Shown: in pieces, positions 750 to 19,379 of the stretch
Layout of the letters: each line of letters starts with the position of its first letter
How positions within the stretch are numbered: position 1 is the stretch's first letter
NCBI RefSeq assembly: GCF_030410485.1
Contig: NZ_JAUHHC010000001.1
Location: 868,001-932,000, forward strand
From: Roseateles violae
Lineage (GTDB): Bacteria > Pseudomonadota > Gammaproteobacteria > Burkholderiales > Burkholderiaceae_C
Reading direction: 5' to 3'
Length of the DNA stretch: 64,000 nucleotides
The notes under the pieces: generated by a model
Seen by the model: only the letters and a program-made list of their open reading frames with translations
Databases searched by the model: none
Told to the model about the DNA's origin: nothing
Translations under genes and position numbers: made by a program

Positions 750-896
750 TTGAGCCCGCAGGGCTCAATGCATTCAACTCAAGCCGCCCGCCGGGCCGCC
801 CCAAGGGCGGCTTGAGCGGATGTGATCGCGGGGCACCCCCCGCGATCATCCGCGTCCCCTCGGGGGACCGACCAGGTATTCCCTGGGCGAGGGGCT
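750..896. repeat. Multi-hairpin intergenic element, copy A
   Basis: The spacer between convergent lplT and the SGNH hydrolase gene is almost entirely inverted repeats. They are TTGAGCCC/GGGCTCAA (750-757/761-768), a perfect 12-bp pair (778-789/805-816), an 11-bp pair (823-833/838-848), CCCC/GGGG around 856-865, and CCAGG-TATTC-CCTGG (872-886) followed by GCGAGGGGCT. None has a downstream T-run, so these are not classical intrinsic terminators, although they may block RNA polymerase or protect mRNA ends. The last hairpin and its flank recur at 17574-17599. Confidence 0.6.
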
Positions 897-1821
897 AACG
901 CTGCTTGCCGACCGGCGCGGGGGGCGCCAGCACGTTCTGGATGTGCTCGGACCAGGCACGGGCGATCTTGAAGCTGCCGCTGTGGTTCAGGTGGATCTCG
1001 TTGTGCCAGTCGCCGCTATTGCCGCTGGAGCCCGGCGTCGCCAGCGCCAGCGGCACGGCGGTCGAGTCGAACACATGCAGGCCGGGGAACTGCGCCTTGT
1101 CGGCCGCCATCGCCTTCAGCAGCTGGGCCAGGTGGAAGACCATCAGCCGGCTGATCGCTGCCCAGTCGGCGCCGGGCAGGGCATAGGCCTTCAGCGCCGG
1201 ATAGAGCCAGGGCCCGCTGCTGCCCAGGCCGCCGTCCTCGGAGCCGGCCGGGCGCGGCATCGGCACCGCGTAGCAATGCATGAAGACCGGCTTAGCCGCA
1301 GAGGGGCCCTGGTCGCGCAGCGTCAGCAGATGGCGGACATTGCTGCGCAGATAGTCGGCATAGGTGGCCCAGCCCGGCTCGGAGAAATAGCGCGCGACGC
1401 CGGCCGAGGGCGGGCCCCACTCGGTCTGGCGGCGCAGGAGGCGCAGATGCAGCGGCACTTCCTTGCCGTCGGCCGTGTGCGCCGGCGTCTGCGCGGCGGC
1501 GATCAGGTCGTTGCCGCCCACCGACAGCAGCACGCCGTCCCAGACCGGCGCCTCGGGGCTGGACAGCAGGCGCACGAAGTCGGGCGCCGATTCCAGATCC
1601 ACCATATGGGCCAGCGCCTCGCCGGTGCCGGCGCAGTTGACCACGCAGGCCTTCTCCTTCAGCACCAGCTCCTGCAGCAGATTCGCATGGGCATTCAGCT
1701 TGGCCGTCGCGTTCGAGAACCAGGAGTCGCCCTGGGCCAGCAGGCGCCAGTGATAGCTGGACAGGTCGGGCGCCCGGGCCGATTGCAGGTCCCCCGGGGT
1801 GAAACAGGCCAGATGATCCAA
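895..1821 (-). CDS. SGNH/GDSL-family hydrolase
   Basis: A predicted serine esterase/lipase of the SGNH fold, about 308 residues. The blocks are visible in order: GDSW (block I, nucleophile Ser) near residue 30, GGND (block III) near 104, and a C-terminal WHNEIHLNHSG stretch holding the catalytic His (block V). The open frame extends upstream to 2064, but the extension is low-complexity arginine/proline-rich sequence typical of GC-rich read-through. I chose the TTG at 1821 because AGGGAG sits eight bases before it and the family-like sequence begins there. No clear signal peptide is visible, and the substrate is unknown. It is divergent from the transporter at 2012. Confidence 0.7.
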   Translation of the reverse strand: MDHLACFTPGDLQSARAPDLSSYHWRLLAQGDSWFSNATAKLNAHANLLQELVLKEKACVVNCAGTGEALAHMVDLESAPDFVRLLSSPEAPVWDGVLLSVGGNDLIAAAQTPAHTADGKEVPLHLRLLRRQTEWGPPSAGVARYFSEPGWATYADYLRSNVRHLLTLRDQGPSAAKPVFMHCYAVPMPRPAGSEDGGLGSSGPWLYPALKAYALPGADWAAISRLMVFHLAQLLKAMAADKAQFPGLHVFDSTAVPLALATPGSSGNSGDWHNEIHLNHSGSFKIARAWSEHIQNVLAPPAPVGKQR

Positions 1822-2011
1822 GAGCGGCTCTCCCTTTGTCGATGAACAACTGGTTTCACGGGCGGCCGGCCGCCCGGGCTGCGTGCCATTGGACGGCCGG
1901 CCGGCGCAGTGTGCCATGCTATAAACCCAGGGCAAGTCGACGGGCTTTCCCGGGCAGTGAACTTGCCCCGGGGTGTTGCGGCCGGCCAACCGCGGCCCCG
2001 TCTCCCGCTCG

Positions 2012-3406
2012 ATGTCCTCCCGCTCGTCTGCGCCGCCACTGGCCATCCTGGCCCTGATGTTCAACGCCCTGGTCTGGGGCCTGTCCTGGTGGCCGTTCCG
2101 CCAGTTTCAGGCCGGCGGCCTGCATCCGCTGTGGACCACGGTCGTGCTCTACCTGATCTCGCTGGCCGTGATCTCGCTGCGCCAGCGCGCTGCCTGGCTC
2201 GAATTCCTGCGCACGCCCAGCCTGTGGCTGATCATGGCCGCCGCCGGCATCACCAACACCGCCTTCAACTGGGCTGTGGCGATCGGCGACGTGGTGCGCG
2301 TGGTGCTGCTGTTCTATCTGATGCCGCTGTGGGCGGTGCTGCTGGCGCGCCTGATCCTGCACGAGCGTTTCGGCGCCGCGGCGGCGCTGCGCATGGCGCT
2401 GGCCCTGGCCGGCGCGGCCATCGTGCTGGCGCCCGCCGGCGGGGGCTTCCCGCTGCCGGCCAGCTTGGCCGACTGGCTGGGCGTGCTGGGCGGCTTCAGC
2501 TTCGCCTTCAACAATGTGATGCTGCGTCGCGAGGCGGCACGCGGCGCCGGCGCCCGCGCGCTGGCCATGTTCGGTGGCGGCGTGCTGGTCGCCGGCGCGG
2601 CCGCCAGCGCAATGGCCGCCGGCGGCCTGATCGGCTGGCCGGCGTTGCCGGGCACGCTGTGGCTGCTGCCGCTGACGGCGATGGCGCTGCTGTTCCTGCT
2701 GTCCAATCTGGCGCTGCAGTACGGCGCCGGCCGGCTGCCGGCCAATGTGACGGCGGTGGTCATGCTGACCGAGGTGCCGGCGGCGGCGCTGTCGGCGATC
2801 TGGCTGGGCGGCGGCGCGCTCGACGCACGCACCGCGGCCGGCGGCGCCTGCATCCTCGGCGCCGCCTTGCTGGCGGCGCTACCATCGCGGGCACGTCAAG
2901 GAGCGTCAGCAATGAGTTCGAGTCCCAGCGTCTACGATTTCCAGGCCCTTTCCATCACGGGCCAGCCGGCCGATCTGGCCAGCCAGCGCGGCAAGGTGCT
3001 GCTGATCGTCAACACCGCCAGCGCCTGCGGTTTCACCCCGCAGTTCGCCGGGCTGGAGCAGCTGTGGAAGGACTATGCCGAGCGCGGCCTGGTCGTCCTC
3101 GGCTTCCCGAGCAACGAGTTCGGCGCCCAGGATCCGGGCAGCAACGACGAGATCGCCTCCTTCTGCCAGCTGAACTACGGTGTCAGCTTCCCGATGATGA
3201 GCAAGGTCAAGGTCAACGGCGCCGATGCCCATCCGCTGTGGAAATGGCTGAAGGGCGAGAAGCCCGGCTTCCTCGGCACCGAGGCGATCAAGTGGAACTT
3301 CACAAAATTCCTGGTCGGCCGCGACGGCCAGGTGCTGAAGCGCTATGCGCCCAATGAGGCGCCGGAAAAGATGCGCGCCGATATCGAGGCGGCGCTGCAG
3401 GCTTGA
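2012..3406 (+). CDS. EamA (DMT) transporter fused in frame to glutathione peroxidase
   Basis: The first 300 residues are a drug/metabolite transporter with two EamA repeats and about ten membrane helices, probably an exporter of small metabolites or amino acids. The frame has no stop at the end of the transporter. It continues through a linker of about ten residues into a complete glutathione peroxidase whose own ATG is at 2912. Either the two are made as one polypeptide, or the peroxidase is mostly translated from its internal start, which has AAGGAG eight bases upstream. ATG 2012 is preferred over 1973 because the conserved transporter sequence begins just after it. A missed stop through sequencing error cannot be excluded. 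Confidence 0.7.
   Translation: MSSRSSAPPLAILALMFNALVWGLSWWPFRQFQAGGLHPLWTTVVLYLISLAVISLRQRAAWLEFLRTPSLWLIMAAAGITNTAFNWAVAIGDVVRVVLLFYLMPLWAVLLARLILHERFGAAAALRMALALAGAAIVLAPAGGGFPLPASLADWLGVLGGFSFAFNNVMLRREAARGAGARALAMFGGGVLVAGAAASAMAAGGLIGWPALPGTLWLLPLTAMALLFLLSNLALQYGAGRLPANVTAVVMLTEVPAAALSAIWLGGGALDARTAAGGACILGAALLAALPSRARQGASAMSSSPSVYDFQALSITGQPADLASQRGKVLLIVNTASACGFTPQFAGLEQLWKDYAERGLVVLGFPSNEFGAQDPGSNDEIASFCQLNYGVSFPMMSKVKVNGADAHPLWKWLKGEKPGFLGTEAIKWNFTKFLVGRDGQVLKRYAPNEAPEKMRADIEAALQA
2912..3406 (+). CDS. Glutathione peroxidase (BsaA/GpoA type), internal start within fused ORF
   Basis: A Cys-type glutathione peroxidase (164 residues when started here) that reduces hydroperoxides with thiol or thioredoxin donors. 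The peroxidatic Cys is at residue 39 in NTASACGFTPQF. The supporting Gln is at 73 (FGAQDPGS) and the Trp-Asn pair is at 128-129 (IKWNFTKF), so the catalytic set is complete. AAGGAG lies eight bases before the ATG, which argues for independent initiation even though the upstream transporter frame runs in without a stop. The stop TGA overlaps the TTG start of the next gene (TTGA), suggesting translational coupling. Confidence 0.85.
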   Translation: MSSSPSVYDFQALSITGQPADLASQRGKVLLIVNTASACGFTPQFAGLEQLWKDYAERGLVVLGFPSNEFGAQDPGSNDEIASFCQLNYGVSFPMMSKVKVNGADAHPLWKWLKGEKPGFLGTEAIKWNFTKFLVGRDGQVLKRYAPNEAPEKMRADIEAALQA

Positions 3407-4479
3407 GCGCCGGCGCCGGGCCCGCGCTGGCGGCGCCCTTCCGCCGCTTCGCCGCCGTCGACTGCACGCAGGACCCGCTCTATGTGGCGATCTGCCAGGC
3501 GGTGGCCGAGGCGCCCGAGCTGCTGGCGCTGATGGCCGAGGCGCCGGCGACGCAGCGCAAGCCGAACCTGCTGCTGGCGGCGCTGCACGAGGGGGTGCTG
3601 GCCGGCGTCGCGCATCCCTTGCGCGATTACTACCCCAGCGTCGGCGGAACGCGCCTGCCGGATGCCGCGCTGCCGGCCGCGCTGCTGGACTTCGCCCGCC
3701 TCGAGCGGCCGCGCCTGATCGAGCATCTGCGCCAGCGCAGCACGCAGACCAACGAGATCGGCCGCTGCGCGGTGCTGTGGCCGGCGCTGCAGCAGATCGC
3801 CGTGCTGACGGGCCGGCAGGAGCTGGCCCTGCTGGACTTCGGCGCCAGCGCCGGCCTGAACCTGGGCGTCGACGAGTACCGCTACGACTACGGCCGCTTC
3901 GCGCTCGGCGCGCCGGCCGCGGCCGGGCGTCCGACCATTGCCTGCGACTGGCTCGGCGACGCAGCGCCGCCGCCGGCCCGGCCCTGGCGACTGGCCGCCC
4001 GCGCGGGCCTGGATCCGGCACCGATCGATGTGGGCGATGAGGCGGCCGTGCGCTGGCTGCGCGCCTGCCTGTGGCCGCATGACCGCGAGCGCGCGCTGCG
4101 GCTGGACCAGGCGCTGGCCCTGGCGCGGCGGGCCGGCTGGCGGGTTCAGCAGGCCGAGGACTGCCTGGCGGCGGTCGAGCCCTGGCTCGACGGTCTGCCG
4201 GCCGGCGTGCAGCCGCTGCTGTTCAACAGCTGGGTGCTGTACTACTTCTCGGCGGAGGAACTGACGCGGCTGCGCGAGCGGCTGGGGCGGCTGGTGCGCG
4301 AGCGCGGCCTGCTCTGGCTCAGCGCCGAATCGCCGGCGCAGCGGCCACCGGGCCTGGCACTGCCGCCGCTGGCCCCAGGCGCCGAGCCCTCGACGCTGTG
4401 GACCCTGCAGTCGGCCACGGGCGTCCGCGCGCTGGCCTGGTCGCACCCGCATGGGCGCTGGCTGCAGTGGCTCGGATGA
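3403..4479 (+). CDS. DUF2332 family protein
   Basis: A 358-residue protein of the DUF2332 family; its function is not established. The N-terminal part carries the family-like stretch FRRFA..DC..DPLY. A central [17 protein letters not shown] motif near residue 146 resembles a Rossmann-type SAM-binding loop, so a methyltransferase-like fold is possible. Its TTG start overlaps the stop of the peroxidase gene by three bases. No signal peptide is seen, so it is probably cytosolic. The coupling to a glutathione peroxidase may be incidental. Confidence 0.75.
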
Positions 4480-4480
4480 G

Positions 4481-4750
4481 CTAGTTGCCGAAGCGCAGCG
4501 CCGATCGCTCGCGCGCCTTGGCCGCCTCGATCTCGCGGTCGCGCGGCGCGGCCGTGGTCTTCAGATCGGCGATCAGCACGCGCGCCGAGGCGGCGATCTC
4601 GGCCACCGCGCGCTCGAAGGCCGCCTCGTTGGCCTTGGACGGCACGGTGAATCCGCTCAGCTTGCGCACGAACTGCAGGGCCGCGTCGCGGATCTCGAGC
4701 TCGGTGGCCGGCGGTTCGAAATTGAACAGGGTGCGGATATTCCTGCACAT
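4481..4750 (-). CDS. DUF2277 family protein
   Basis: A small, soluble, charged 89-residue protein that begins [15 protein letters not shown], the diagnostic start of DUF2277, and ends in a helical Arg/Glu/Ala-rich tail. GGAGG lies seven bases before the ATG. The function is unknown. It ends one base after the convergent DUF2332 gene stop. Confidence 0.85.
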
Positions 4751-4818
4751 GGGTACGCCTCCAGGGTTGAGGCCATCCTACGCTCGGGCGCCGGCCGCGC
4801 CGCTCGATCCGCGCAAGC

Positions 4819-5277
4819 TCAGAGCAGTTCCGGCGGGATGTTGCCGCCATTGGCGGCTAGCTTGGTCAGCACCGTCTTGTGCAGCCATATATTCATCTGC
4901 GCGGAATCCGCCATCTTCTCCGGCGGGCAGCCGAGCTCGGCGGCCAGCTCCTTGCGCGCGGCCAGGCTGCTGTCCAGGCCCAAGAGCTTCATCAGGTCGA
5001 CGATGGAGGTCTTCCAGTTGAGCCGCTCGGCATGCTGGGCGGCTAGGCCCTCGAGCTTGGCGACGACGTCGACCTCGCTGATCGCCGCCGGCCTCGGTGC
5101 GGCGGCCGCCGGTGCCGGTGCAGCTGCCGGCGCCGCGCCGGCCGGTGGCGCCGCGGCCGGGGTGCCGGGCGCGGCCGTGGCCGTGGGTGTGGTGGTGTTG
5201 GCGGGAGTGGCCGCCGGCGTGGCCGCCGCGTCCGCGCCGAAACCTAGCTTGGACAGGATCTTGCTGAAGATGCTCAT
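4819..5277 (-). CDS. DUF3597 domain protein
   Basis: A 152-residue protein with the DUF3597 pattern: a short N-terminal amphipathic segment ([14 protein letters not shown]), an Ala/Pro/Thr linker of low complexity (residues about 14-65), and a folded C-terminal domain with [29 protein letters not shown] and an Asn-Ile-Trp-Leu segment. The longer frame to 5394 is low-complexity read-through and was rejected. The domain resembles those used as peptidoglycan- or lectin-associated modules in other proteins, but no function is proven. It is divergent from tyrB. Confidence 0.8.
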
Positions 5278-5392
5278 GGCATCGCTCCGTGGTCGAGTGG
5301 AAGTCCTCCCGCGGGGCAGGCGCCGTTCCCGGGCCGGGCGGCGCGCCGATAATGGGCCACGCAACCGTCCGCAGCTTTCGGAGTTCCCGCCC

Positions 5393-6580
5393 ATGTTCCA
5401 GCACGTTGACGCCTATGCCGGCGATCCCATCCTGAGTCTCAACGAGGCCTTCCAGAAGGACCCCCGCGCCGGCAAAGTCAATCTCTCGATCGGCATCTAT
5501 TTCGACGACGCCGGGACCATCCCGATGCTGGACTCGGTGCGCCGCGCCGAGCTGGCCGTGGTCGCCGAGGCCGGCGCCCGGCCCTATCTGCCGATGGAGG
5601 GCGCGGCCAATTTCCGCAGCGCCGTGCAGGCGCTTCTGTTCGGCGCGGACAATCCGGTGCGCGAACGCACGGTGACGATCCAGAGCGTCGGCTCCAGCGG
5701 CGGCCTGAAGGTCGGCGCCGATTTCATCAAGCGCTACTTCCCCGACAGCGCGATCTACGTCTCCGACCCGACCTGGGACAACCACCGCGCCGTCTTCGAG
5801 GGCTCGGGCATCGCGGTCAAGACCTATCCCTATTACGACCCGGCCACCGGCGGTGTGCGCTTTGCCGACATGCTGGCGGCGATTGCCCAGCTGCCGGCCA
5901 GGAGCGTCGTGCTGCTGCACGCCTGCTGCCACAACCCGACCGGGGTCGACCTGACGCAGGCGCAGTGGACCGAGCTGATCGCGGTCTTGAAGCAGCGTGA
6001 GCTGCTGCCCTTCCTGGACCTGGCCTACCAGGGCTATGGCGACGGCATCGAGGAGGATGCCTTCGCGGTGCGCGCACTGGCGGCGGCCGGCCTGTCCTTC
6101 TTCGTCGCCAACAGCTTCTCCAAGAGCATGAGCCTGTACGGCGAGCGCTGCGGCGCGCTGTCGGTGGTCTGCCCCGACGCGGCGCAGGCCGCCAATGTGC
6201 TGGGCCAGCTGAAGTTCATGATCCGGCGCAACTACTCGAACCCGCCGCTGCACGGCGGCCAGCTGGTCGCGCGCGTGCTCAGCGACCCGGCGCTGCGCGC
6301 GCAATGGGAGAGCGAGGTGGCCGAGATGCGCGAGCGCATCCAGGCCATGCGCAAGAGCCTGCACGAGGTGCTGTCGGCCAAGCTGCCCGGCCGCAACTTC
6401 GACTACTTCCTGACCCAGCGCGGCATGTTCAGCTACACCGGCCTCGCCGCGTCCCAGGTCGACCGGCTGAAGGACGAGTTCGCCGTCTACCTGGTGCGCT
6501 CCGGCCGCATGTGCGTGGCCGGCCTGAACAGCCGCAATGTCGAGACGACCGCGGTCGCGATGGCCGCCGTGCTGGGCTAG
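5393..6580 (+). CDS. tyrB: Aromatic-amino-acid aminotransferase (class I, PLP)
   Basis: A 395-residue class I aminotransferase of the AspC/TyrB group. It interconverts tyrosine, phenylalanine or aspartate and their keto acids with 2-oxoglutarate. The PLP-binding Lys is K244 in [14 protein letters not shown]. The HNPTGVDL motif near 180 and the MLDS/GAANFR substrate region are present. The length is that of the family. ATG 5393 has CGGAG about ten bases upstream; the frame also opens far upstream, but that part is a shadow of the antisense genes. TyrB rather than AspC is an inference from motif flavour. The context with dadA suggests amino-acid turnover. Confidence 0.85.
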
Positions 6581-6709
6581 CGAGCGCCTACCCTGCCAGG
6601 CCCCCCGGGGGGCATTCGACAGGGTTATGGCTGCCAGCGCCGCTTTCATTGGCGAGGCGGCCGCTTCATCCTTACGCTGCCGGCAATCGGTTGAAGCCCA
6701 AGATTCAGG

Positions 6710-7966
6710 ATGAAGCATTGTGTGGTGATTGGGGGAGGGGTCGTCGGCTTGACGACGGCCTGGTCCCTGGCCGAGCGTGGCCATGCGGTGACGCTGGTCG
6801 AGCGCGAAGCCGAGGTGGCCACCGGGGCCAGCCGCGCCAACGGTGGACAGCTCAGCTACCGCTATGTCTCGCCGCTGGCCGACGAGGGCGTGCCGCTGAA
6901 GGCGCTGCGCTGGCTGCTCGATCCGGACGGCCCGCTGCGCTTCAAGCCCGAGTTCAGCCTGCATCAGTGGTCCTGGCTGTTCGCCTTCCTGCGCGCCTGC
7001 CGCGGGCCGGTCAACCAGCGCATGACGGCTCGCCTCCTGGAGCTGGGTGCCTACAGCCAGGCCGCCTTCGGCAAGCTGAACGAGGCGGCGCGGCTCGAAT
7101 GCATCTCGCTGCGCACGCCAGGCAAGCTGGTCGTCTACCGCAAGCCGGCCGAGTTCGCCCGCGTCGCCGCCAAGCTGCAGCGCCGCCCCGCCGGCGGTCC
7201 CGAGCGGGCGCTGTCGCATGACGAATGCGTGGCGCTGGAGCCGGCGCTGGAGTCGACCGAGGCGACGCTGGCCGGCGGTATCTTCACCGAGGGCGAGGCG
7301 GTCGCCGACTGCTACAAGCTCTGCCTGCAGCTGGCTAAAGCCTTGCGCGAGCATGGAAATTTCCGCGGCTTCGTCACGGCCGAGGCGCAGGGCTTCGTGC
7401 AGCGCCAGGGCCGCGTGGTGGCGCTGAAAAGTTCGGCCGGCGAGATCGCCGCCGACGAGTTCGTCATCGCCGCCGGCCTGCAGAGCCGCGCGCTGGCGCA
7501 GACGGCCGGCATCGAGCTGCCGATCTATCCGCTCAAGGGCTACAGCCTGACCGCGCCGATAGCCGCCGCTCACCGGCCACCGGTCGTCAGCGTCACCGAT
7601 TTCGAAAAGAAGATCCTCTACGCCCGCATCGGCGAGCAGCTGCGCGTGGCGGCCATGGTCGATCTGGTCGGCGACGACCTGCGCCTGGATCCGCAGCGCA
7701 TCGCCTCGCTGCAGCGCGCGGTGCGCGCGACCTTTCCGCAGGCGGCCGACTATGACCAGGCCGTCGCCTGGGCCGGGCTGCGGCCGGCCACGCCCAGCGG
7801 TGCGCCGATCCTGGGCGCCTCCGGCCTGCCCAATCTCTGGCTCAATGTCGGCCATGGCGCTCTGGGCTTCACCTTCTCCTTCGGCACCGCCGAGATCGTC
7901 GCCGAGCTGATCGCCGGTCGCGCCAGCCCGGTGGCACTGGACGGCCTGAGGCTGCCGCAGTCATGA
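6710..7966 (+). CDS. dadA: D-amino-acid dehydrogenase, small subunit type (FAD)
   Basis: A 418-residue FAD oxidoreductase that deaminates D-alanine and other D-amino acids to keto acids, passing electrons to the respiratory chain. The dinucleotide-binding GGGVVG is at residues 8-13, and the C-terminal FAD motif LWLNVGHGALGFTFSFGTA is characteristic of DadA. The length matches the family. Its stop overlaps the ATG of the serine hydrolase gene (ATGA), and an LD-carboxypeptidase follows. The three together suggest recovery and burning of D-alanine from murein peptides (inference). No alanine racemase dadX is adjacent. Confidence 0.88.
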   Translation: MKHCVVIGGGVVGLTTAWSLAERGHAVTLVEREAEVATGASRANGGQLSYRYVSPLADEGVPLKALRWLLDPDGPLRFKPEFSLHQWSWLFAFLRACRGPVNQRMTARLLELGAYSQAAFGKLNEAARLECISLRTPGKLVVYRKPAEFARVAAKLQRRPAGGPERALSHDECVALEPALESTEATLAGGIFTEGEAVADCYKLCLQLAKALREHGNFRGFVTAEAQGFVQRQGRVVALKSSAGEIAADEFVIAAGLQSRALAQTAGIELPIYPLKGYSLTAPIAAAHRPPVVSVTDFEKKILYARIGEQLRVAAMVDLVGDDLRLDPQRIASLQRAVRATFPQAADYDQAVAWAGLRPATPSGAPILGASGLPNLWLNVGHGALGFTFSFGTAEIVAELIAGRASPVALDGLRLPQS

Positions 7967-9135: not shown

Positions 9136-9139
9136 TGCG

Positions 9140-10045: not shown

Positions 10046-10085
10046 GGCTGCTGGTGCCGGACGGGAGGCCCGGGGCTCACCGGGC

Positions 10086-10544
10086 TCAGGGCTCGATCGG
10101 TGAACCGTCCGTCCTCGTGAAGCGGCGGACTTCGCCCTCGTGATGCAAGACGATGCCGTGATCCGGATAGTGCACGACGCCGCTGTGGGCTCTTGCACCG
10201 ATGACCAGGTAGACGGCATCCTCGCTCGACCGATTCTCCAGGCAGTGCGCAAGCGCATCGCCGGCGGCCCAGGCCGCGGCATCGCCGGCGCGCAGCACGG
10301 TCTCCTGGTCTTCAACAAGCACCAGTTCCCCGGCCAGCACATAGGCGAACTCGTCCTCCGTCTCATGCCAATGCCGATGCGAAGAACGCGAGCCCGGCGG
10401 CAGGCGCTCCAGGCGCACGCCGAACTGCGTGAGCCTCTCTTGCTCGCCGAGCACCAGTTCGGAAAACGGCCCGTCATTCTGGCCGGACAAGCGATTGACG
10501 GCGCCGGCGTGCTCCGTCCATCGACTGACATCGAGCTTGGGCAT
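10086..10544 (-). CDS. Cupin domain protein
   Basis: A 152-residue single-domain cupin. The conserved beta-barrel motifs are present: SSHRHWHETEDEFAYVL with the metal-binding His/Glu set, then G-x-x-x-x-L and a second motif around AGDALAHCLENRS. It is likely a small metal-binding sensor or enzyme of unknown substrate. The start at 10544 has GGAGGA five bases upstream. The frame is open to 10886, but that extension overlaps the next gene and looks non-coding. The local codon use is less GC-skewed than its neighbours. Confidence 0.8.
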   Translation of the reverse strand: MPKLDVSRWTEHAGAVNRLSGQNDGPFSELVLGEQERLTQFGVRLERLPPGSRSSHRHWHETEDEFAYVLAGELVLVEDQETVLRAGDAAAWAAGDALAHCLENRSSEDAVYLVIGARAHSGVVHYPDHGIVLHHEGEVRRFTRTDGSPIEP

Positions 10545-10582
10545 GGGGTCCTCCGGCATCGTTGCGCGATGCTTGCTGCGGG

Positions 10583-10945
10583 CTAAGGCGAAGATGAACG
10601 CTCGCCGACAAGGCTTGCGTGTCGATCGACCGCTTGTCTCGCATGGCGCCGCCTTCGCACCATTGAGTGGACACTCGTCAAGACAGTCGCCCACAGCAGG
10701 CTGTTGCTTGCCCAGGCGAGCAGGAAACCGGCCCAGCCAAGGTCCAGGTCGAAGCACAAGCGTCCCGGCAGCGTCAGCGTGAACGCGAGCGCCGGCACGA
10801 CCGCCGACTGGACCTGGTCCCAGACGGTCCACAGCGCGCGATCCTTGAAGCCCAGCCCCATGGCCACGCCGAGCGACCAGATCCAAAGCAGGGCACTCAG
10901 GGCGGCGTGCGCCAGGGCCCAGATCGCGATCCGCTTAATCCGCAT
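10583..10945 (-). CDS. Small integral membrane protein of unknown function
   Basis: A 120-residue protein with three or four hydrophobic segments (about residues 5-30, 45-60 and 70-92) and a basic, polar C-terminal tail rich in Arg and Ser. I do not recognise the family. Its start overlaps the end of the VOC gene by eleven bases, so the two are probably translated from one message. The base composition is lower in GC than the surroundings, which fits recent acquisition of the 10.1-11.4 kb group. Confidence 0.6.
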   Translation of the reverse strand: MRIKRIAIWALAHAALSALLWIWSLGVAMGLGFKDRALWTVWDQVQSAVVPALAFTLTLPGRLCFDLDLGWAGFLLAWASNSLLWATVLTSVHSMVRRRRHARQAVDRHASLVGERSSSP

Positions 10946-11363
10946 CCGGCTTGCTCACCAGCTCGCCGCCCCACTCGCTGGGCGGCACGTCCGCCACCGA
11001 CTGAGAGAAGACCCAGCAATGCCCAGCCAGGTCTTGCGCCGCGTACTGGCGCTCTCCGTAGGGATGGGTGGTGGGGATGCCGAACACCTTGGCCCCTGCG
11101 GCCACGGCCCGGGCGTAATGCGCGTCGACGTCGTCGACCCTGACCATGATCGAGTGGCAGGCGCTTTCCGCTGCCGTGGGGGCGGGACCGGCTCTCAGCA
11201 CAAGGGCACCGCTGCCGAACTCGAGTTGTGCGCGATGAGAGCCGATGCGCAGGCGAACGGAGAAACCGAAGGCCTCGATCAGCCATTGAGTTGCGGCGTG
11301 GACGTCCGGGTAGGCAAGCTCGGGAATGATCTGGGACCGAGGCATGGAGCGATTGGATTCCAT
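10935..11363 (-). CDS. VOC (glyoxalase/bleomycin-resistance) superfamily protein
   Basis: A 142-residue protein with the paired beta-alpha-beta-beta-beta modules of the vicinal oxygen chelate fold. IIPELAYPDVHAATQWLIEAFGF opens the first module and VRVDDVDAHYARAVAAGA the second. DLAGHCWVFSQ supplies the typical C-terminal strand. The activity cannot be assigned; glyoxalase, dioxygenase or antibiotic-binding roles all occur. The start is at ATG 11363, with an alternative at 11345. It lies upstream of, and overlaps, the small membrane protein gene. Confidence 0.8.
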   Translation of the reverse strand: MESNRSMPRSQIIPELAYPDVHAATQWLIEAFGFSVRLRIGSHRAQLEFGSGALVLRAGPAPTAAESACHSIMVRVDDVDAHYARAVAAGAKVFGIPTTHPYGERQYAAQDLAGHCWVFSQSVADVPPSEWGGELVSKPDAD

Positions 11364-11768
11364 GGCATGACGCCTTCACTGCGGCCTAGGGTCGGCAAGG
11401 GGCTGGCCGCAGGCGCGTCCCCTTGGCGGCGGGCCTAGACATCATTCGCGACCGGTACATCCGGATCGGAGACCTAGTGGCCGGATTGATCCCGTGGGGA
11501 CTTGATGGCGTCTGACGATCATGATGCTGGCTTGAAATCCGAGAGACCGCTGCTGTCGCTCTGATACCGGATCCGTCCGTATGACAAGGCAGCGTGCGCA
11601 TTGCTAGCGTACTAAAGATACACGGCAAATACACGGTAAGAGCCGCGCGGCAAGACCCGGCCCCGCACAGCGCCGCGCACGAGCGCAAAAAAAAGCCCCG
11701 CTGGTTCTCGCCGCGGGGCTTTGGGTATCGACGGCCACCCGGGCCGCAGCCCGGGTGCCGCTGCCGGA
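11364..11768. other. Intergenic spacer, 405 bp, with terminator and short tandem repeat
   Basis: No gene is supported here. The spacer is relatively AT-rich for this window. It contains an imperfect tandem of ATACACGGCAA and ATACACGGTAA around 11618-11639, and the terminator at 11687-11723 that serves the TonB receptor gene. The rest holds no recognised site. Confidence 0.5.
11687..11723 (-). terminator. Rho-independent terminator of the TonB receptor gene
   Basis: On the minus strand AAAGCCCCGC and GCGGGGCTTT form a stem of about nine base pairs around a loop of about eleven bases, followed by a run of eight T. It lies about 45 bases beyond the receptor stop, so it ends that transcript. Confidence 0.85.
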
Positions 11769-14627
11769 TCAGCGGAAGCTGTAGCTGGCCGACAGCACCA
11801 GCGTGCGGCCGAAGGGGTCGGCGACGCGCGGATCCCAGCCGGCACCGACCACGTCGTCGACGTTGTGGTAGGTGAAGTTGGGCGCCTTGTCGAAGAGATT
11901 GCGCAGGCCGGCCGTCAGCGTCAGGTTCTTGACGCCGGTGTAGCTGCCGAACAGATTGAAGGTTGTGTAGCTCGGGATGTCGCGCAGCGGGATGTTGAAG
12001 CGCGTCATGTCCTGGTCCTTGTAGCCCGACTTGTAGATCGTGCTGAAGGTCGTGGCCCAGGCATCGCCCGCCCAGCCGATGTCGAAGCTGAACTTGTCCT
12101 TCAGGTACAGGGTGCGCAGGCCGAAGGCGCCGACATATTGCTGCAGCGGCTGGCTGGCGATCGCGCGCTCCTTGTGGCTGATCATGTGCGTGCCGTCCAG
12201 CTTGGCGGTCCACAGGCCCGAGGACAGCTTCAGCGCGTAGCTGGCGCCGTAGTCCAGGCCCTGGGTCGAGCTGTCGGCCGCGTTGATCCAGCCGGCCTCG
12301 ACCAGGCGGATCTTGTTGGTGGCCGGGTCGCGCAGGAAATGCTCGGCGAACAGGTTGTAGTTGGCCTTCAGCTCACCCAGCGTCAGCTTCTTGATCCGCT
12401 CGTCCAGGTCGACGCGCCAGTAGTCGGCGAACATGGTCAGGTCGCGCACCGGCGACAGCACGATGCCCAAGGTGCCCTGCTTGGACTTCTCGGCCGACAG
12501 GCCCGGGTTGCCCGAGTTGGTGTAGTTCAGGCGGATCGCGCACTGGGTCGGATCGGTCGGGCACAGCACCGGATCGGAGAAGTCCGCCGTGTCCAGCAGC
12601 GGCGCGGTGTTCAGCGCCAGTTGCTGGAAGCTCGGGGCGCGGAAGCCGGTGTTCACCGAGCCGCGGAACAGGATCACGTCGTTCGGCTGGTAGCGGAAGG
12701 CGATCTTGGGGTTGGTCGTGCCGCCGAAGTCGCTGTACTTGTCATAGCGGATCGCCAGCTGCAGGTCCAGGCCCTTCATCACCGGCACGGCCAGCTCGCC
12801 ATACAGCGCGTTGACGTCGCGCGACATCTTCGGAATGGCCGTGTTGCCCGGGCAGTTGTAGACGATGTTGGCGTAGACGGGGTTGTCGGCGTTGATGGTC
12901 GGCGCGAGGCTGTCGCTGCAGGTGAAGCTGCCGGTCTCGGGCGCGAACTTGAAGCTTTCCTTGCGCAGGTCGAAGCCGACGGCGAAGTCCAGCGGGCCGG
13001 CCGGCAGCTTCATCAGATTGCCCGAGATCGCGCCGTCGAACTGCTGCAGCGTGGTCTCGCCGCCCTGCAGCTTGCCGCGCGCCTTGGTCGACTCGATCAG
13101 GTCCATCGCGGCCTGCGTCTGCTTCTCGCCCGGCTTGACCCAGGGGTTGATGGTGCCGGTCTTCAAGGCGTCGACCAGCTTGCCCAGATAGGCGTAGCCG
13201 TCGACCAGATTGGTCCAGGCCTCGCCCTTGGCCGTCGACAGGCCCAGCTTGTAATCGTATTCGCCGACGGTGCCGTCGACACCGACCAGCAGTCGGGCGT
13301 TCTCGGCCACTTGCTCCTGCGTGCGGTAGCCGAAGTCCTGCATGCGCCAGCGGTAGGCGATCGGCTTGGTCGGGTCGAACTCGTTGACGCCGTAGTTCTT
13401 CAGGTTCAGGTAGTAGGGGCCGTTGACCGGGTAATGCGTGCCCGAGGCATTGGTGGTGCTGAACTGGCTGGGCACCAGCTCGGCGGTCACCTCGCTGCGC
13501 GAGGCGCTCAGCTCGATGAAGGCGGTATGGTTGTCGGCGATCTGCAGATTGCCGCGCGTCACCAGGTTGTAGGCCTCCTTGGCCGGGGCCAGCATGTACT
13601 GCGCGCCGTAGTCGGTGTTGCACAGGTACTTGGTCGAGGCGTTCACCGCCGGCGTGACGGTGGCGTTCCACAGCTGCGGCTGGTACTTCACCCCGGTGTC
13701 GATCGAATCGCAGCCGGCTTGGCCGGCCAGCGCCAGCAGGTTGATGCGGGTGTACTTCAGCGGGTCGCCGGTGCCGACGGTGGAGCCGGTCGTGCCGTTG
13801 GCGCCGCCCAGGGCGGTGCCGGCCACGGTCGAGGAGTTGCCGAGGACGTTGGCGAAGGGGTGGCTGGACGAATCCGGCGACAGGAATCGATCCGGCTGGA
13901 AGCCGTTCGCCCATTCGCGGTCGCTGCCGCGCAGGATGTCGTTCTTGTCCAGCGTCAGGCTGGCCATCAGATTGAACTTGTCGCGCTCCAGCGAGCCGAT
14001 GCCGCCGGTGATGCTGGCGCGGCGGGTCGTGCCGGCGCTGTTTTCCAGCGGCTGGGCCCAGTCGACCTTGACGTCGACGCCCTCCATGTCCTTCTTCAGG
14101 ATGAAGTTGATCACGCCGCCGATCGCATCGGTGCCGTAGATGGCCGAGGCGCCGTCCTTCAGCACCTCGATGCGGGACACGGCCGCCATCGGGATCGCGT
14201 TCAGGTCGACCGCGCCGCCGCTCATGCCCTGGGCGGCGATGCGGCGGCCGTTCAGCAGCACCAGCGTGCTGCTCGGGCCCAGGCCGCGCAGATTGGCGTT
14301 CGAGGCGCCGCCGGTCAGGCGGTCGGTGTCGGAGCCGAAGACATTGTTGTTCGAGGTCGCGTTGTCGGCGCCGACGCCGTTGGCGGCCAGCTGGCGCAGC
14401 ATTTCCTCGGCCGAGGTGATGCCCTTGGCGTTCAGGTCGCTGGCGGTGATGACCTGGATCGGCACCGCGCCCTCGTTGGCCAGGCGCTTGATGCTGGAGC
14501 CGGTGACCTCGACTCTCTCGACCTTCTGCACCGGCGCGGTCGGGGTGGTCTGCGCCAGCGCCACGCCCAGCAATTGCGAGCCGAGGCCGACCAGGGCCAG
14601 ACTGCGCGTCAGTTTCTTCAGTTTCAC
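11769..14627 (-). CDS. TonB-dependent outer-membrane receptor
   Basis: A 952-residue TonB-dependent receptor. The signal peptide covers about residues 1-26 (ending GVALAQ). A TonB-box-like VERVEVTGSSIKR follows, then a plug domain (ANLRGLGPSSTLVLLNGRR, IEVLKDGASAIYGTDAIGGVINFILK), and a long beta-barrel ending in an aromatic strand (VLSASYSFR). The GTG start at 14627 has AAGGAG seven bases upstream, which beats the upstream ATG. The substrate is not evident and no siderophore gene is near. It lies beside the murein-salvage genes, so peptides or muropeptides are possible cargo (inference). A terminator follows at 11687-11723. Confidence 0.92.
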   Translation of the reverse strand: MKLKKLTRSLALVGLGSQLLGVALAQTTPTAPVQKVERVEVTGSSIKRLANEGAVPIQVITASDLNAKGITSAEEMLRQLAANGVGADNATSNNNVFGSDTDRLTGGASNANLRGLGPSSTLVLLNGRRIAAQGMSGGAVDLNAIPMAAVSRIEVLKDGASAIYGTDAIGGVINFILKKDMEGVDVKVDWAQPLENSAGTTRRASITGGIGSLERDKFNLMASLTLDKNDILRGSDREWANGFQPDRFLSPDSSSHPFANVLGNSSTVAGTALGGANGTTGSTVGTGDPLKYTRINLLALAGQAGCDSIDTGVKYQPQLWNATVTPAVNASTKYLCNTDYGAQYMLAPAKEAYNLVTRGNLQIADNHTAFIELSASRSEVTAELVPSQFSTTNASGTHYPVNGPYYLNLKNYGVNEFDPTKPIAYRWRMQDFGYRTQEQVAENARLLVGVDGTVGEYDYKLGLSTAKGEAWTNLVDGYAYLGKLVDALKTGTINPWVKPGEKQTQAAMDLIESTKARGKLQGGETTLQQFDGAISGNLMKLPAGPLDFAVGFDLRKESFKFAPETGSFTCSDSLAPTINADNPVYANIVYNCPGNTAIPKMSRDVNALYGELAVPVMKGLDLQLAIRYDKYSDFGGTTNPKIAFRYQPNDVILFRGSVNTGFRAPSFQQLALNTAPLLDTADFSDPVLCPTDPTQCAIRLNYTNSGNPGLSAEKSKQGTLGIVLSPVRDLTMFADYWRVDLDERIKKLTLGELKANYNLFAEHFLRDPATNKIRLVEAGWINAADSSTQGLDYGASYALKLSSGLWTAKLDGTHMISHKERAIASQPLQQYVGAFGLRTLYLKDKFSFDIGWAGDAWATTFSTIYKSGYKDQDMTRFNIPLRDIPSYTTFNLFGSYTGVKNLTLTAGLRNLFDKAPNFTYHNVDDVVGAGWDPRVADPFGRTLVLSASYSFR

Positions 14628-14959
14628 GGAAGTATCTCCTTCAACGACGTTGTGGGGCGGCGCAAAGCGCAGGCAGCATTTCTTTGCATAGCTTTGCAGC
14701 ATGATCGGTGAGGAATCCGGCACGAAGCCATAGGGGCGGACCGCATTTGTTGCGGCGCGCGCAATGAATGCTTGTCGGGCATGCATAACCTGGGGGAATG
14801 CGCGCGATGCCGGCGCGCCCTTCGCCCAGTCGAAGCGCCCATTCCGCCGCTGCTGGCAAGGCGCTCAAACAGTTATGGCCGCTGCGGGCCGGCCCCCTGC
14901 CGCGCGGGCCCGCGGGCCGATACAGTGCGGGCCACATCGTCCCAGCCGCGCAGCCCGCC
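14628..14959. other. Divergent intergenic region, 332 bp
   Basis: The spacer separates the TonB receptor gene from the divergent ornithine-cyclodeaminase-like gene and should hold both promoters. Apart from the Shine-Dalgarno of the receptor (AAGGAG near 14637) I see no convincing promoter hexamers, operator dyad or gene. A locally AT-richer patch (14670-14715) is the likeliest promoter zone. Confidence 0.4.
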
Positions 14960-15883
14960 ATGCAACTGATCACCGAAGCGCAAGTCCGCGCGACCCTCAC
15001 CCTGGACGCCGCCGTGCAGGCGCTGCGCCAGGCCTTTTTGCAGCAGGGCCAGGGCCTGGCCAGCGTGCTGGCGCGCGGCCGCGCCGCCGCCACCCTGGAC
15101 GGCCGGGCTCTGATGGTCAGCGCGATGGGCGCCGTGCTGCCCGAGGTGCTGGGCACCAAGGTCTATTCGACCCTGAACGGCCAGTTCCAGTTCGTCATCA
15201 CGCTGTTCTGCAGCAAGACCGGCGCGCCGCTGGCGACGCTGGAGGCCAACGAGCTGACCCGGCTGCGCACCGCCGCCGCCACCGCGGTCGCCGCCGAGGC
15301 GCTGGCGCTGCCCGAGTCGAAGACGCTGGCCATCTTCGGCGCCGGCACGCAGGCCCGCGCGCATGCCCAGGCGCTGCTGCCGCTGCGCAAGTTCGAGCGC
15401 GTTTTGGTCTGCGCGCGCAGCGGCGCGGGAGAGTTTGCCGCCGAGCTCGCCGCCACCCATGGCCTGCCGGCGCAGGCGGTCGACGCACAGACGGCCGCCA
15501 GCCAGGCCGAGGTGATCGCCACCTGCACCCGCGCCACCGAGCCGCTGTTCGACGGCGCCTGGGTCAAGCCGGGCAGCTTCGTCGCCGCGGTCGGCTCCAG
15601 CAAGCCGGTCGCGCGCGAGCTGGACGATGCGCTGCTGGCGCGCGCTGCGCTGATCGCCGTCGAATGGAAACCGGCCGCCGAGGGCGAGGCGGGCGAGTTC
15701 AAGCGCGCTGCCGCCGGCGTGATCGACCCGGCACGCGTCGCCGAGCTGGGCGCGCTGCTGGCCGCGCCGCGGCCGCGCGGCGAGCGGGACATCGTCGTCT
15801 ACAAGAGCGTCGGCATCGGCCTCGAGGACGTCGCGATCGCGCACTGGATCTACCGCCGCCTGCAGGGCGGAGCCGCGGCATGA
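14960..15883 (+). CDS. Ornithine cyclodeaminase / mu-crystallin family protein
   Basis: A 307-residue NAD(P)-dependent enzyme of the OCD/mu-crystallin family. Members deaminate ornithine to proline or reduce cyclic imines, and some make or break N-substituted amino acids. The Rossmann motif FGAGTQARAHA is near residue 118. The preceding ELTRLRTAAATAVAAEALA segment is characteristic of the family. Substrate specificity cannot be read; an imine reductase or opine-type role is possible. No Shine-Dalgarno is visible before ATG 14960. Its stop overlaps the dacB start (ATGA), so the two genes are coupled. Confidence 0.8.
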   Translation: MQLITEAQVRATLTLDAAVQALRQAFLQQGQGLASVLARGRAAATLDGRALMVSAMGAVLPEVLGTKVYSTLNGQFQFVITLFCSKTGAPLATLEANELTRLRTAAATAVAAEALALPESKTLAIFGAGTQARAHAQALLPLRKFERVLVCARSGAGEFAAELAATHGLPAQAVDAQTAASQAEVIATCTRATEPLFDGAWVKPGSFVAAVGSSKPVARELDDALLARAALIAVEWKPAAEGEAGEFKRAAAGVIDPARVAELGALLAAPRPRGERDIVVYKSVGIGLEDVAIAHWIYRRLQGGAAA

Positions 15884-17328
15884 GGGCCGCGCTGAGCCTG
15901 CTCGCGGCCGGCCTGCTGCTGGCCGGCTGTGCGACCCAGCAGGCGACGACGCCGCCGACCGCTTCGCCGCTGCCGGCCGAGGTCCGGCAGGCGCTGGACA
16001 AGGCGCAGATGAGCGAGGGCGTGCTGGGCATCGTCGCCTTCCCCTTGCACCAGCGCGATCGCGGCCTGCGCTTCAACGCCGAGCGGCCGATGCAGCCGGC
16101 CTCGACGATGAAGCTGCTGACCAGCATCGTCGCGCTGGATCGCCTGGGAGCCAATGCGCGCGGCCGCACCGATCTGCTGATCGACAGCACGCCGGTCGGC
16201 GACGTGCTGCCCGGCGCGCTCTATCTGCGCGGCGGCGCCGACACCGATCTGGACTGGGGTGCCCTGCACATGCTGCTGCGCCAGCTGCGCGAAGCGGGCC
16301 TGCGCGAGATCCGGGGCGGCCTGGTGGTCGACCGCACGCTGTTCCGCCCGGCGCGCATGGACATCGGCGTGCCGCGCTTCGACGAGCAGCCGGAGTTCCA
16401 GTACAACGTGATCCCCGACGCGCTGCAGCTGAACACCAGCGTGCTCGACTACACGATCAGCGCCGACGCCAAGGGCATCAGCGCCCGGGTCAGCCCGGCC
16501 TGGCCCGGCATCGAGATCGATGCGCGCGGCCTGACGCTGAACGAGCTGCCCTGCAAGGACTGGGAGAACGAGTGGCGGGTGCCGGTCACCGAGACGGCGG
16601 GCGGCATCCAGCGCGTGCGCCTGCTGGGCACCTTCCCGCGCAACTGCACGCAAAAGCCCGAGCTGAACCTGGTCGAGCGCCAATGGCTGACCGCCACCGC
16701 CGTGCGCCAGCTCTGGCGCGAGCTGGGCGGCACGATCGCCGGCGGCGACCGCGAGGCGGCAACGCCCGAGCAGGCCCGCATCGTCGCCAGCCACCGCGGC
16801 CGGCCGCTGGCCGAGGTGCTGCGCGGCATGATGAAGAGCTCGGACAACCCGGCAACAAGGCTGACCTATCTGCGCCTGGGTGCCGCCGTTGCCCGCGCCG
16901 AGGAGACGACGCTGGCCGCTTCGGAGCGCGTCGTGCGCGACTGGTTCGCGGCCAAGGGCCTGGACGCCGAGGGCCTGGTGCTCGAGAACGGTTCGGGCCT
17001 GTCGCGCATCGAGAAGATCAAGCCGGCGCAGCTGGCCGGGCTCCTGGCCGTCGCCTGGGACGGCCGCCAGGCGCCCGAGCTGCTCGGCACCCTGCCGATC
17101 GCCGGCGTCGACGGCACCCTGAGCCGGCGCCTGAAGGGCACGCCGGCCGAGGGCCGCGCGCGCCTGAAGACCGGCACCCTGCACAGCGCCGTCGCGCTGG
17201 CCGGCTATGTACCGGACGCCGCCGATCGGCCCTGGATCGTCGTCGCCATGCTCAACGACGAACTGGCCTCGAAGAACGGCCGACCGGTGATCGACGCGCT
17301 GGTCGACTGGGTGGCGCGCCAGCGCTGA
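15880..17328 (+). CDS. dacB: D-alanyl-D-alanine carboxypeptidase/endopeptidase, PBP4 type, lipoprotein
   Basis: A 482-residue class C penicillin-binding protein that trims D-Ala and cuts murein cross-links. The lipoprotein signal ends in LLAGC with Cys17, so it should be anchored in a membrane, unlike soluble E. coli PBP4. The active site is complete: SxxK at 75-78 (ASTMK), SDN at 321-323, and KTG at 430-432. It is translated by overlap with the upstream cyclodeaminase-like gene and is convergent with an exported LD-carboxypeptidase gene. It fits the start of the murein-salvage locus. Confidence 0.9.
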   Translation: MRAALSLLAAGLLLAGCATQQATTPPTASPLPAEVRQALDKAQMSEGVLGIVAFPLHQRDRGLRFNAERPMQPASTMKLLTSIVALDRLGANARGRTDLLIDSTPVGDVLPGALYLRGGADTDLDWGALHMLLRQLREAGLREIRGGLVVDRTLFRPARMDIGVPRFDEQPEFQYNVIPDALQLNTSVLDYTISADAKGISARVSPAWPGIEIDARGLTLNELPCKDWENEWRVPVTETAGGIQRVRLLGTFPRNCTQKPELNLVERQWLTATAVRQLWRELGGTIAGGDREAATPEQARIVASHRGRPLAEVLRGMMKSSDNPATRLTYLRLGAAVARAEETTLAASERVVRDWFAAKGLDAEGLVLENGSGLSRIEKIKPAQLAGLLAVAWDGRQAPELLGTLPIAGVDGTLSRRLKGTPAEGRARLKTGTLHSAVALAGYVPDAADRPWIVVAMLNDELASKNGRPVIDALVDWVARQR

Positions 17329-17447
17329 GCGGCGCCTTGCGGGCCGAGCGCCGGGCCGCTCCCAAGCCGGCCGGCCTCGGCGATGTGCCTGCCCGTCGAT
17401 CCGGCAAGCATCGCCGCCATCAGCCAGAGGCTGATGGCCCTCGCTGG

Positions 17448-17599
17448 CACAAACAGTCCTCAGGACTGTTTGTGTCCGCTCTCGGTCCCCACGGGGAGCG
17501 AGTGCCGCGGCTCCAATCCCGCCTGCGCGGGATTGGACGGCACGAGCGCCATCGGCGTGCCGCCGATGGCCGGCCAAGGTACTCCTTGGACGAGGGGCT
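17448..17599. repeat. Multi-hairpin intergenic element, copy B
   Basis: Five inverted repeats follow one another in the spacer between convergent dacB and the exported LD-carboxypeptidase gene. They are a 13-bp pair (17448-17460/17462-17474), a 10-bp pair with one mismatch (about 17481-17501), a 10-bp pair (17513-17522/17527-17536), another 10-bp pair (17548-17557/17561-17570), and CCAAGG-TACT-CCTTGG (17574-17589) followed by ACGAGGGGCT. The last unit matches copy A (872-896) in loop and flank while its stem differs in a compensated way. The rest of the spacer, 17329-17447, shows nothing recognisable. Confidence 0.6.
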
Positions 17600-17604
17600 T
17601 CAGC

Positions 17605-19276: not shown

Positions 19277-19379
19277 GTTGGCTCCCCGCTCGCCGGGTAC
19301 GGCGATCGACCCTCCGTGAGGGACGGGCCTTGTTTGGGGCGGCCCGGCGCGGCGGCCCGGCGCTTCGCTGCGCTCGCGT
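19277..19379. repeat. Possible degenerate hairpin element, copy C (inverted orientation)
   Basis: Between the LysR and ddpX genes the minus strand reads GCCGGGCCGCCCCAA (also present at 790-804). It then has CCCTC-ACG-GAGGG, a GCCG-TACC-CGGC hairpin, and GAGCGGGGAGC. The order (GC hairpins, then a hairpin with a TAC loop, then a CGAG..GGGG flank) resembles copies A and B, but matching is looser. It may instead be ordinary GC-rich spacer. Confidence 0.3.

Follow-up and report, generated by a model that had tools for sequence, protein, structure and literature searches.

Two spacers between convergent genes in a stretch of 64,000 nucleotides from Roseateles violae (assembly GCF_030410485.1, contig NZ_JAUHHC010000001.1, positions 868,001 to 932,000; hereafter the window) each hold a copy of a compact repeat built from successive hairpins, and a third, divergent copy lies close to the second. 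We consider it probable that these are copies of a small non-autonomous mobile multi-hairpin repeat of the Roseateles/Pelomonas/Rhizobacter clade. The main fact about it, that it is mobile and docks at the stop and start codons of genes, is absent from the first-pass annotation of the window. The copies, their parts, and the genes around them are arranged as follows, in window coordinates.

2-748, plus strand: gene running toward copy 1, cut off by the window edge, without a Pfam match
740-773, no strand: extra palindrome (inverted repeats) beyond the core element, holding the stop codon of the plus-strand gene (746-748)
779-896, minus strand: copy 1, hairpins A-B-C-D (covariance model match of 93.3 bits, E 3.5e-13; copy 1 is itself among the 26 sequences used to build the model)
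778-816, minus strand: copy 1 hairpin D, stem off the consensus, head CTTGGGGCGGCCCGGCG conserved (inverted repeat, alignment)
816-853, minus strand: copy 1 hairpin C, including its two-base bulge (inverted repeats, fold)
854-868, minus strand: copy 1 hairpin B, GTCCCC/TCG/GGGGAC in plus-strand letters (inverted repeat)
872-886, minus strand: copy 1 hairpin A, CCAGG/TATTC/CCTGG in plus-strand letters (sequence, fold)
895-1944, minus strand: gene ending at copy 1 (open frame 895-2064), no Pfam match in the stretch scanned
15880-17328, plus strand: gene for a D-Ala-D-Ala carboxypeptidase (S13) that converges on copy 2 (PF02113, E 2.6e-73)
17339-17599, minus strand: copy 2, a single element with hairpin B swapped for a run of other hairpins
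17340-17373, minus strand: copy 2 hairpin D, beyond the spacer coordinates of the first-pass annotation (sequence and covariance model alignment)
17379-17415, minus strand: copy 2 hairpin C (sequence and covariance model alignment)
17416-17570, minus strand: copy 2 inserted hairpins (inverted repeats; the one at about 17480-17503 by eye)
17574-17599, minus strand: copy 2 start unit, CCAAGG/TACT/CCTTGG and ACGAGGGGCT in plus-strand letters
17605-18648, minus strand: LD-carboxypeptidase (S66) gene, stop 5 nt before copy 2 (PF02016, PF17676)
18674-19276, minus strand: D-Ala-D-Ala dipeptidase (M15) gene, start at copy 3 (PF01427)
19280-19347, plus strand: copy 3, divergent, without hairpin C (covariance model match of 29.7 bits, E 0.0038)
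19380-20282, minus strand: LysR-type regulator gene on the far side of copy 3 (PF03466, PF00126)

RESULTS

Copies in the window

The first-pass annotation had described five inverted repeats in each of the spacers 750-896 and 17448-17599, with a common unit at the end of each array. The inverted repeats and the common unit are present in both spacers, and the unit is real, but it is the 5' start of a minus-strand element rather than the end of an array. The hairpins of the second spacer likewise exist, in an element that is longer than had been thought (17339-17599) and has eight hairpins by our count, since several others (17548-17570, 17512-17537, about 17480-17503, 17443-17479, and 17416-17438) stand in place of hairpin B. 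The covariance model finds copy 2 as two matches, 17339-17471 (68.8 bits) and 17507-17599 (33.8 bits), which we read as one element, a reading supported by a related expanded copy (locus L001/L051; L and G numbers denote our loci and genomes). The looser third copy that had been suspected at 19277-19379 proved to be the divergent plus-strand copy 3. The terminal unit had also been said to touch the stop of a minus-strand gene, and this is so: the first bases of copy 1 are the AG of a TAG stop (895-897), a 2-nt overlap, and the 5' end of copy 2 lies 5 nt from a TGA (17605-17607). At copy 3, the opposite-strand gene has its start codon (19274-19276) at a distance of exactly 3 nt.

One inserted hairpin of copy 2, CAAACAGTCC-NNN-GGACTGTTTG (17443-17479), recurs at positions 307-329 of L313, which is window site 1 of genome G035 and has this hairpin without the element; similar GGAC-CAGTCC hairpins occur in L059, L060, and L112. 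Because it is found apart from the element in G035 and has such counterparts elsewhere, this hairpin may be a separate dispersed hairpin repeat.

A modular unit of three or four hairpins

The element measures about 121 bp, or about 81 bp in a short form, and consists of AGCCCCTCG followed by hairpins A, B, C (optional), and D. The common unit of the two spacers, as read on the minus strand, is AGCCCCTCG with a single base and then a short hairpin, for instance CCAAGG-AGTA-CCTTGG, and it opens the element. The stem of hairpin A is short or long; hairpin B, GTCCCCcgaGGGGAC, is conserved; hairpin C has a variable stem with a two-base bulge; and hairpin D joins a variable outer stem to a conserved head, CTTGGG(A)GCGGCCCGGCG. 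Among 92 copies from other genomes, 59 are at least 110 nt long and 32 are at most 90 nt; the short form lacks hairpin C and is found in Aquabacterium, Rhizobacter, Rivibacter, Roseateles, and Pelomonas. The constancy of CCCCTCG and hairpin B in those 92 copies is partly by construction because the search pattern fixes both, and among copies recovered by BLASTN or by a short pattern, hairpin B is conserved but not invariant. Inspection of the aligned copies by eye showed no terminal inverted repeat.

Past hairpin D, the copies remain conserved for about 5 nt, as judged from the 73 of 131 whose D end is canonical. From there to the next start codon run tails of 0-81 nt (62 rows of 131 given, two of which, L067 and L127, look like one site). 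An extra 3' module, E, stands ahead of the start codon in 7 of 130 copies; it was found at none of 484 gene starts and in 2 of 2360 random stretches. In a minority of copies (L024, L025, L032, L107, and L133), a shared module ending in TGGAAAnCTGAnATG or similar joins the 3' end to the next start codon.

Copy number and distribution

The common terminal unit occurs far above chance. Allowing up to 3 mismatches, GCCCCTCGNCCANGGANTACCTNGG matches the window twice where 0.01 matches are expected, and AGCCCCTCGNCC-N8-16-TGG has 18 exact matches in the 5.2-Mb assembly, compared with 0 for the reversed control pattern; two of the 18 (L010 and L013) fall in coding DNA and appear, when read, to be fortuitous. 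Chance-level occurrence of the terminal motif, which would have undone the first-pass observation, is thus excluded by the genome-wide pattern search. BLASTN with a full copy gave 42 matches in the assembly, at least two pairs of which are fragments of one copy, and the covariance model built from 26 copies gave at least 53 at an E value of ≤0.001. Genome G030 carries at least 60 copies. The covariance model counts are lower bounds because 60 candidates were scored per genome.

Among 59 other genomes in the set of relatives, 8 carry the element under stricter filters, all of them among the 35 of the same family; the covariance model with the same filters found none in the 24 genomes from other families of the order. 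A pattern scan of Genome Taxonomy Database (GTDB) contigs returned at least 113 stretches, 80 of which were listed and analysed; they contain 92 covariance model matches in 79 loci, with none in L145. The genera among the matches listed are Pelomonas, Roseateles, Rhizobacter, Aquabacterium, Inhella, Paucibacter, Ideonella, Rivibacter, and one Methylotenera metagenome-assembled genome (MAG), and the titles of the remaining listed matches go no further than Burkholderiales, Burkholderiaceae, Comamonadaceae, Betaproteobacteria, Proteobacteria, or Pseudomonadota. The Methylotenera case is a full copy (L171 7131-7251) on a contig binned outside the usual clade, through either mis-binning or transfer. 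The plasmid and phage collections gave no element match at an E value of ≤1e-5; one IMG/VR contig matched the element. Rfam gave nothing credible in the window at the gathering threshold or at seven loci at E values up to 5. Literature searches of papers outside subscription found no description of this repeat family.

Docking at gene borders

Docking was counted for 39 of the at least 53 copies in the assembly. A co-oriented stop codon precedes 34 of these, with 33 starting between -2 and +8 nt from the stop and one at 20; four adjoin an opposite start and one adjoins neither. Among the 92 copies elsewhere, 48 come after a co-oriented stop (44 of them at -2 to +10 nt), 37 face an opposite start, which is exactly 3 nt away in 16 of them, and 7 do neither, some of the distant opposite-start cases being inner copies of arrays. 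Between co-directional genes, the gap on the 5' side of the element is smaller than that on the 3' side in 19 of 19 pairs in the assembly and in 33 of 37 elsewhere. Of the 39 assembly copies, 20 have RTG upstream of CCCCTCG at a distance of no more than 7 nt, as do 63 of 89 elsewhere, compared with 13.4% of random 7-mers, and RTGA is so placed in 15 of 39 and 39 of 89, compared with 2.0% (3 of the 92 copies were dropped because the anchor is missing).

Occupied and empty orthologous sites

The flanks of 11 of 12 prepared loci (all but L105) were searched in other genomes, and nine loci were analysed for element-free orthologues; L136, with a weak match (68%) across the junction, and L107, which had matches, are not among the nine. 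The clearest case is L129. The empty site in Root1237 (L275) reads AAGAAATGACATTC, with one ATGA common to the stop of one gene and the start of the next, and the occupied site in Pelomonas Root1217 (L129) reads ATGA, the element with an 18-nt tail, and ATGA again, an exact duplication. L179 has eight orthologues without the element. By our own reading, five of the nine loci (L179, L129, L183, L119, and L104) have an empty site at which stop and start overlap or stand one base apart; in most of the nine, the flanks are too changed to give an exact boundary. Both flanks are present without the element in 15 genomes at window site 1, in 2 at site 2, and in 12 at site 3, whereas in other relatives the two flanks lay too distant from each other or at least one of them was missing from the matches. 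The covariance model found no copy at the element-free junctions of the window sites, where the sole match, in L287, lies elsewhere, or at the junctions of the other empty loci, where four matches lie elsewhere. Since orthologous sites occur with and without it, the element appears to be mobile.

Copies inside genes and tandem arrays

Eight of the 92 copies lie inside called genes, several of the calls being short and doubtful. The two convincing cases are the urocanate hydratases of Ideonella oryzae (L115 4925-5004) and of a MAG (L126 6095-6205), where the element sits in frame at the same place in two organisms. When the Ideonella oryzae protein is compared with PDB 1uwl, residues 13-163 and 194-592 align, and at the position of the element 30 residues (164-193) stand against one that is skipped in 1uwl.

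Head-to-tail arrays occur in L114 (540-800), L130 (2231-2392), L166 (3907-4074), L174 (3437-3682), L152 (6666-6913), and L148 (4588-4830). Their periods are multiples of three in L130 (81), L166 (87), L114 (90 and 90), and L174 (126 bp). Such a rule of three is suggestive only because L152 (83 and 84) and L148 (125, with a divergent second copy) deviate from it. The array in L166 (region 3700-4250) lies antisense between two genes with ATGA on both sides and is itself an open frame beginning at the upstream ATGA. The idea that the upstream RTG begins a reading frame through the element was dropped because the frame differs between copies.

DISCUSSION

In this study, we followed up two unusual spacers of Roseateles violae and found in them a repeat that is dispersed in many copies, is present or absent at orthologous sites, docks at stop and start codons, is flanked in one locus by an exact ATGA duplication, and is tolerated in frame within a gene. 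A consistent account of these observations can be proposed. A trans-acting enzyme would recognise the hairpin-rich single strand of the element, and insertion would occur next to RTGA. Because this sequence is characteristic of stop/start overlaps, the genes on both sides would survive. Selection would remove insertions that break genes, and intragenic copies would persist only if translated in frame. Once settled, the element would form a compact hairpin array between two genes and, as a side effect, may protect or separate their mRNA ends. As it lands mostly at a stop or start codon, it can spread without breaking genes. An extension of this account, in which integration is aimed at translation borders, strikes us as unlikely; here the machinery would itself recognise RTGA at stop/start overlaps, perhaps guided by single strands or RNA, and would place the hairpin cassette precisely between a stop and the next start, separating overlapping genes and leaving both unharmed.

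Several points weigh against mobility with docking at gene borders. The gene borders behind our counts come from our own simple composition-based caller, which in the window calls two small plus-strand frames instead of the minus-strand gene at copy 1. There is no upstream RTG in 19 of 39 assembly copies and 26 of 89 copies elsewhere, and among the window copies only copy 3 has one; where RTG is present, its distance to the core varies by a few bases, which is unusual for a strict transposase target. An exact ATGA duplication was found at only one of the nine analysed loci. A general duplication of RTGA at the right end is unsupported, as start codons downstream of the element carry RTGA no more often than others do (26 of 51 versus 286 of 576). 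Although the 3' tail varies between copies, the element in L129 came in together with a tail of 18 nt, which our account does not explain. The direction of change, gain rather than loss, is inferred from near-precise empty sites and not from a dated tree. Finally, no transposase was recognised near the 92 copies among protein clusters of four or more members from the 79 loci (up to 8 kb each, clusters named by eye), the recurrent neighbours looking like common families, and the 11 Y1_Tnp matches have no element within their 1.5-kb flanks.

A doubtful alternative, and the direction taken by the first-pass annotation, is that the repeat is a selected RNA element of 3' untranslated regions, serving as a terminator or in processing or mRNA stability and amplified because it is useful. 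Co-oriented stops do precede most copies. The strand starting at the stop adopts the same fold in three divergent copies, its minimum and centroid structures coinciding, and the opposite strand folds less uniquely. The stems covary around conserved loops: the covariation analysis of the 92 copies from other genomes, 90 of them distinct, shows that 96.4% of cells pair and that 230 are doubly changed, compared with a shuffled mean of 68 and with 17-36 in slid alignments, in an alignment that was fitted to the model and in which doubly changed cells are not independent events because stem C alleles are common to many copies. The compensation that had been read as evidence of selection on structure is strong, but selection at the RNA level is not established by it. 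Departures from Watson-Crick pairing in stems A to C comprise 11 G·T versus 24 A·C, and RNA selection predicts more G·U. Across the whole structure the figures are 190 G·T versus 43 A·C, but 167 of the 190 trace to two U·G pairs that are constant, one at the foot of hairpin A (87 of 90 copies) and one in D (80 of 90), so that 23 G·T versus 43 A·C remain. The two constant pairs suit an RNA read from the stop; with no G·U excess at the variable positions, RNA-level selection is not favoured over correction of DNA palindromes. Quasi-palindrome correction in DNA can explain compensated stems as well as RNA selection does, a caution that compensated stems in repeats need not imply an RNA function.

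Other observations also speak against an RNA element. A role in 3'-end formation or termination is not established; a hairpin followed by a T run occurs at 0 sites in either spacer region (600-1000 and 17250-17700), and there is no Rfam family. Stability is no guide to the strand, since copy 1 is similarly stable relative to shuffles on both (z of -5.36 and -5.61), and the short form in L110 is no more stable than shuffles (z of -0.51). Furthermore, 24 of the 92 copies elsewhere are in antisense orientation, with an opposite start on one side and an opposite stop on the other, some copies are inside genes, and orthologous gene pairs manage without the element.

It is unlikely that the element belongs to the repetitive extragenic palindromic (REP) type, whether as a CGTC-tagged REP, as a relative of the Rickettsia palindromic elements (RPEs), or as a REP mobilised by a REP-associated tyrosine transposase (RAYT). 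In-frame insertion is indeed known from RPEs, and the position before stem A reads CGTC in 79 of 131 copies (CGCC in 38, CGAC in 3, CGGC in 1, and unread in 10). According to the excerpted text of PMC3733652, CGTC REP families have no dedicated or known transposase, REPs can sit within open reading frames (ORFs), and GTAG REPs can supply stop codons. The same excerpt, however, defines CGTC REPs by a CGTC (or TGTC or CCTC) tag next to a single stem of 8-9 bp with A-T in the first two positions and a loop of 4-5, whereas stem A of the element is about 6 bp long, begins with C-G pairs, and has no A-T in the first two positions. The sizable CGCC fraction and the unit of 81-121 bp with three or four hairpins, rather than 20-40 bp, also argue against this assignment, as do the Y1_Tnp matches without an adjacent element and the carrier genome G011, which has no Y1_Tnp match.

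RNA-mediated copying, as in short retroelements, with a fixed 5' end and a variable 3' tail that starts with A, seems quite unlikely to us. It would fit the 5' docking, the tails of widely differing length, the 18-nt tail gained with the element in L129, and the A-rich first tail bases (A in 60% of 73 tails at position 2, compared with a background of 16%). There is, however, no long poly-A, the A-rich stretch is short and may belong to the element, and module E is common to seven copies.

A stand-alone relic of an IscB/IsrB (OMEGA, HEARO) transposon, one of the RNA-guided systems that prefer NTGA or NTGG next to the target, is very improbable: the upstream RTGA or RTGG resembles the IsrB target-adjacent motifs NTGA, NTGG, and NTG given in the excerpted text of PMC9581776, but the HEARO model RF02033 matches two of three same-family IscB-type loci (a positive control, both in one genome) and none of seven element loci at E values up to 5, the element is absent at those three IscB-type loci (best E 0.37), and the RRXRR domain was not found in the assembly and is present in only 2 of 150 family genomes. 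Genome G074 carries IscB-type genes with HEARO RNA at L278 2142-2376 and L279 1169-1411.

Our preferred reading remains a mobile hairpin repeat that docks at gene borders. Small palindromic repeats are common in bacteria, but the way in which those lacking a known transposase move is still an open question. The present family can be studied in many copies and at sites that are occupied or empty in named isolates, and its sharp docking rule lends itself to testing. If docking reflects a choice of target and not selection alone, it would represent a natural route for DNA into dense operons that leaves genes unbroken.

Comparison with known repeat families

Several described families share features with the element. 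Among small mobile repeats in the broad sense, such as miniature inverted-repeat transposable elements (MITEs), it resembles others in its dispersed copies and its occupied and empty orthologous sites, but no terminal inverted repeats common to an autonomous transposon were found for it. Like the HEARO RNAs of the IscB/IsrB systems, it is structured and adjoins NTGA- or NTGG-like sequence; it differs in having no RF02033 match and no linked IscB-type gene. With REPs, bacterial interspersed mosaic elements (BIMEs), and CGTC-tagged REPs, as far as the excerpted descriptions go, it shares clustered hairpin repeats near or overlapping coding regions and sometimes inside ORFs, and it differs from them in that its unit comprises several hairpins, includes an optional module, and spans 81-121 bp. 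RAYT-associated REPs are set apart by the GTAG tag, which the element lacks at the hairpin foot, and none of the 11 Y1_Tnp loci is flanked by it. Its own tag position reads CGTC, as in CGTC-tagged REPs, in 79 of 131 copies and CGCC in 38, and the single-stem definition in the available excerpt does not describe a stem A that is part of a multi-hairpin unit.

RPEs are small palindromic repeats of 105-146 bp that lie in frame inside conserved protein genes, as described in the excerpts of PMC2229807 and PMC10969869. The element is likewise a small palindromic repeat with in-frame copies in a conserved gene, that of urocanate hydratase; it differs in lying mostly at gene borders, in having three or four separate hairpins, and in belonging to another bacterial class, a comparison made by description. 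The YPAL (RU-2) repeats of Yersinia, in the excerpted text of PMC2229807, are about 168 bp long, have internal inverted repeats, are not A+T-rich, and lack TA termini; they show filled and empty sites, with target duplications of 3 to 26 bp and targets at dyad symmetries. Internal inverted repeats, a composition that is not A+T-rich, the lack of TA termini, and filled and empty sites are common to both, whereas the element docks at stop and start codons, where RTGA is common. Taken together, these comparisons suggest that the element is nearest in kind to the RPE, YPAL, and REP repeats and is distinguished by a modular unit of several hairpins, by the missing GTAG tag, and by how precisely it docks.

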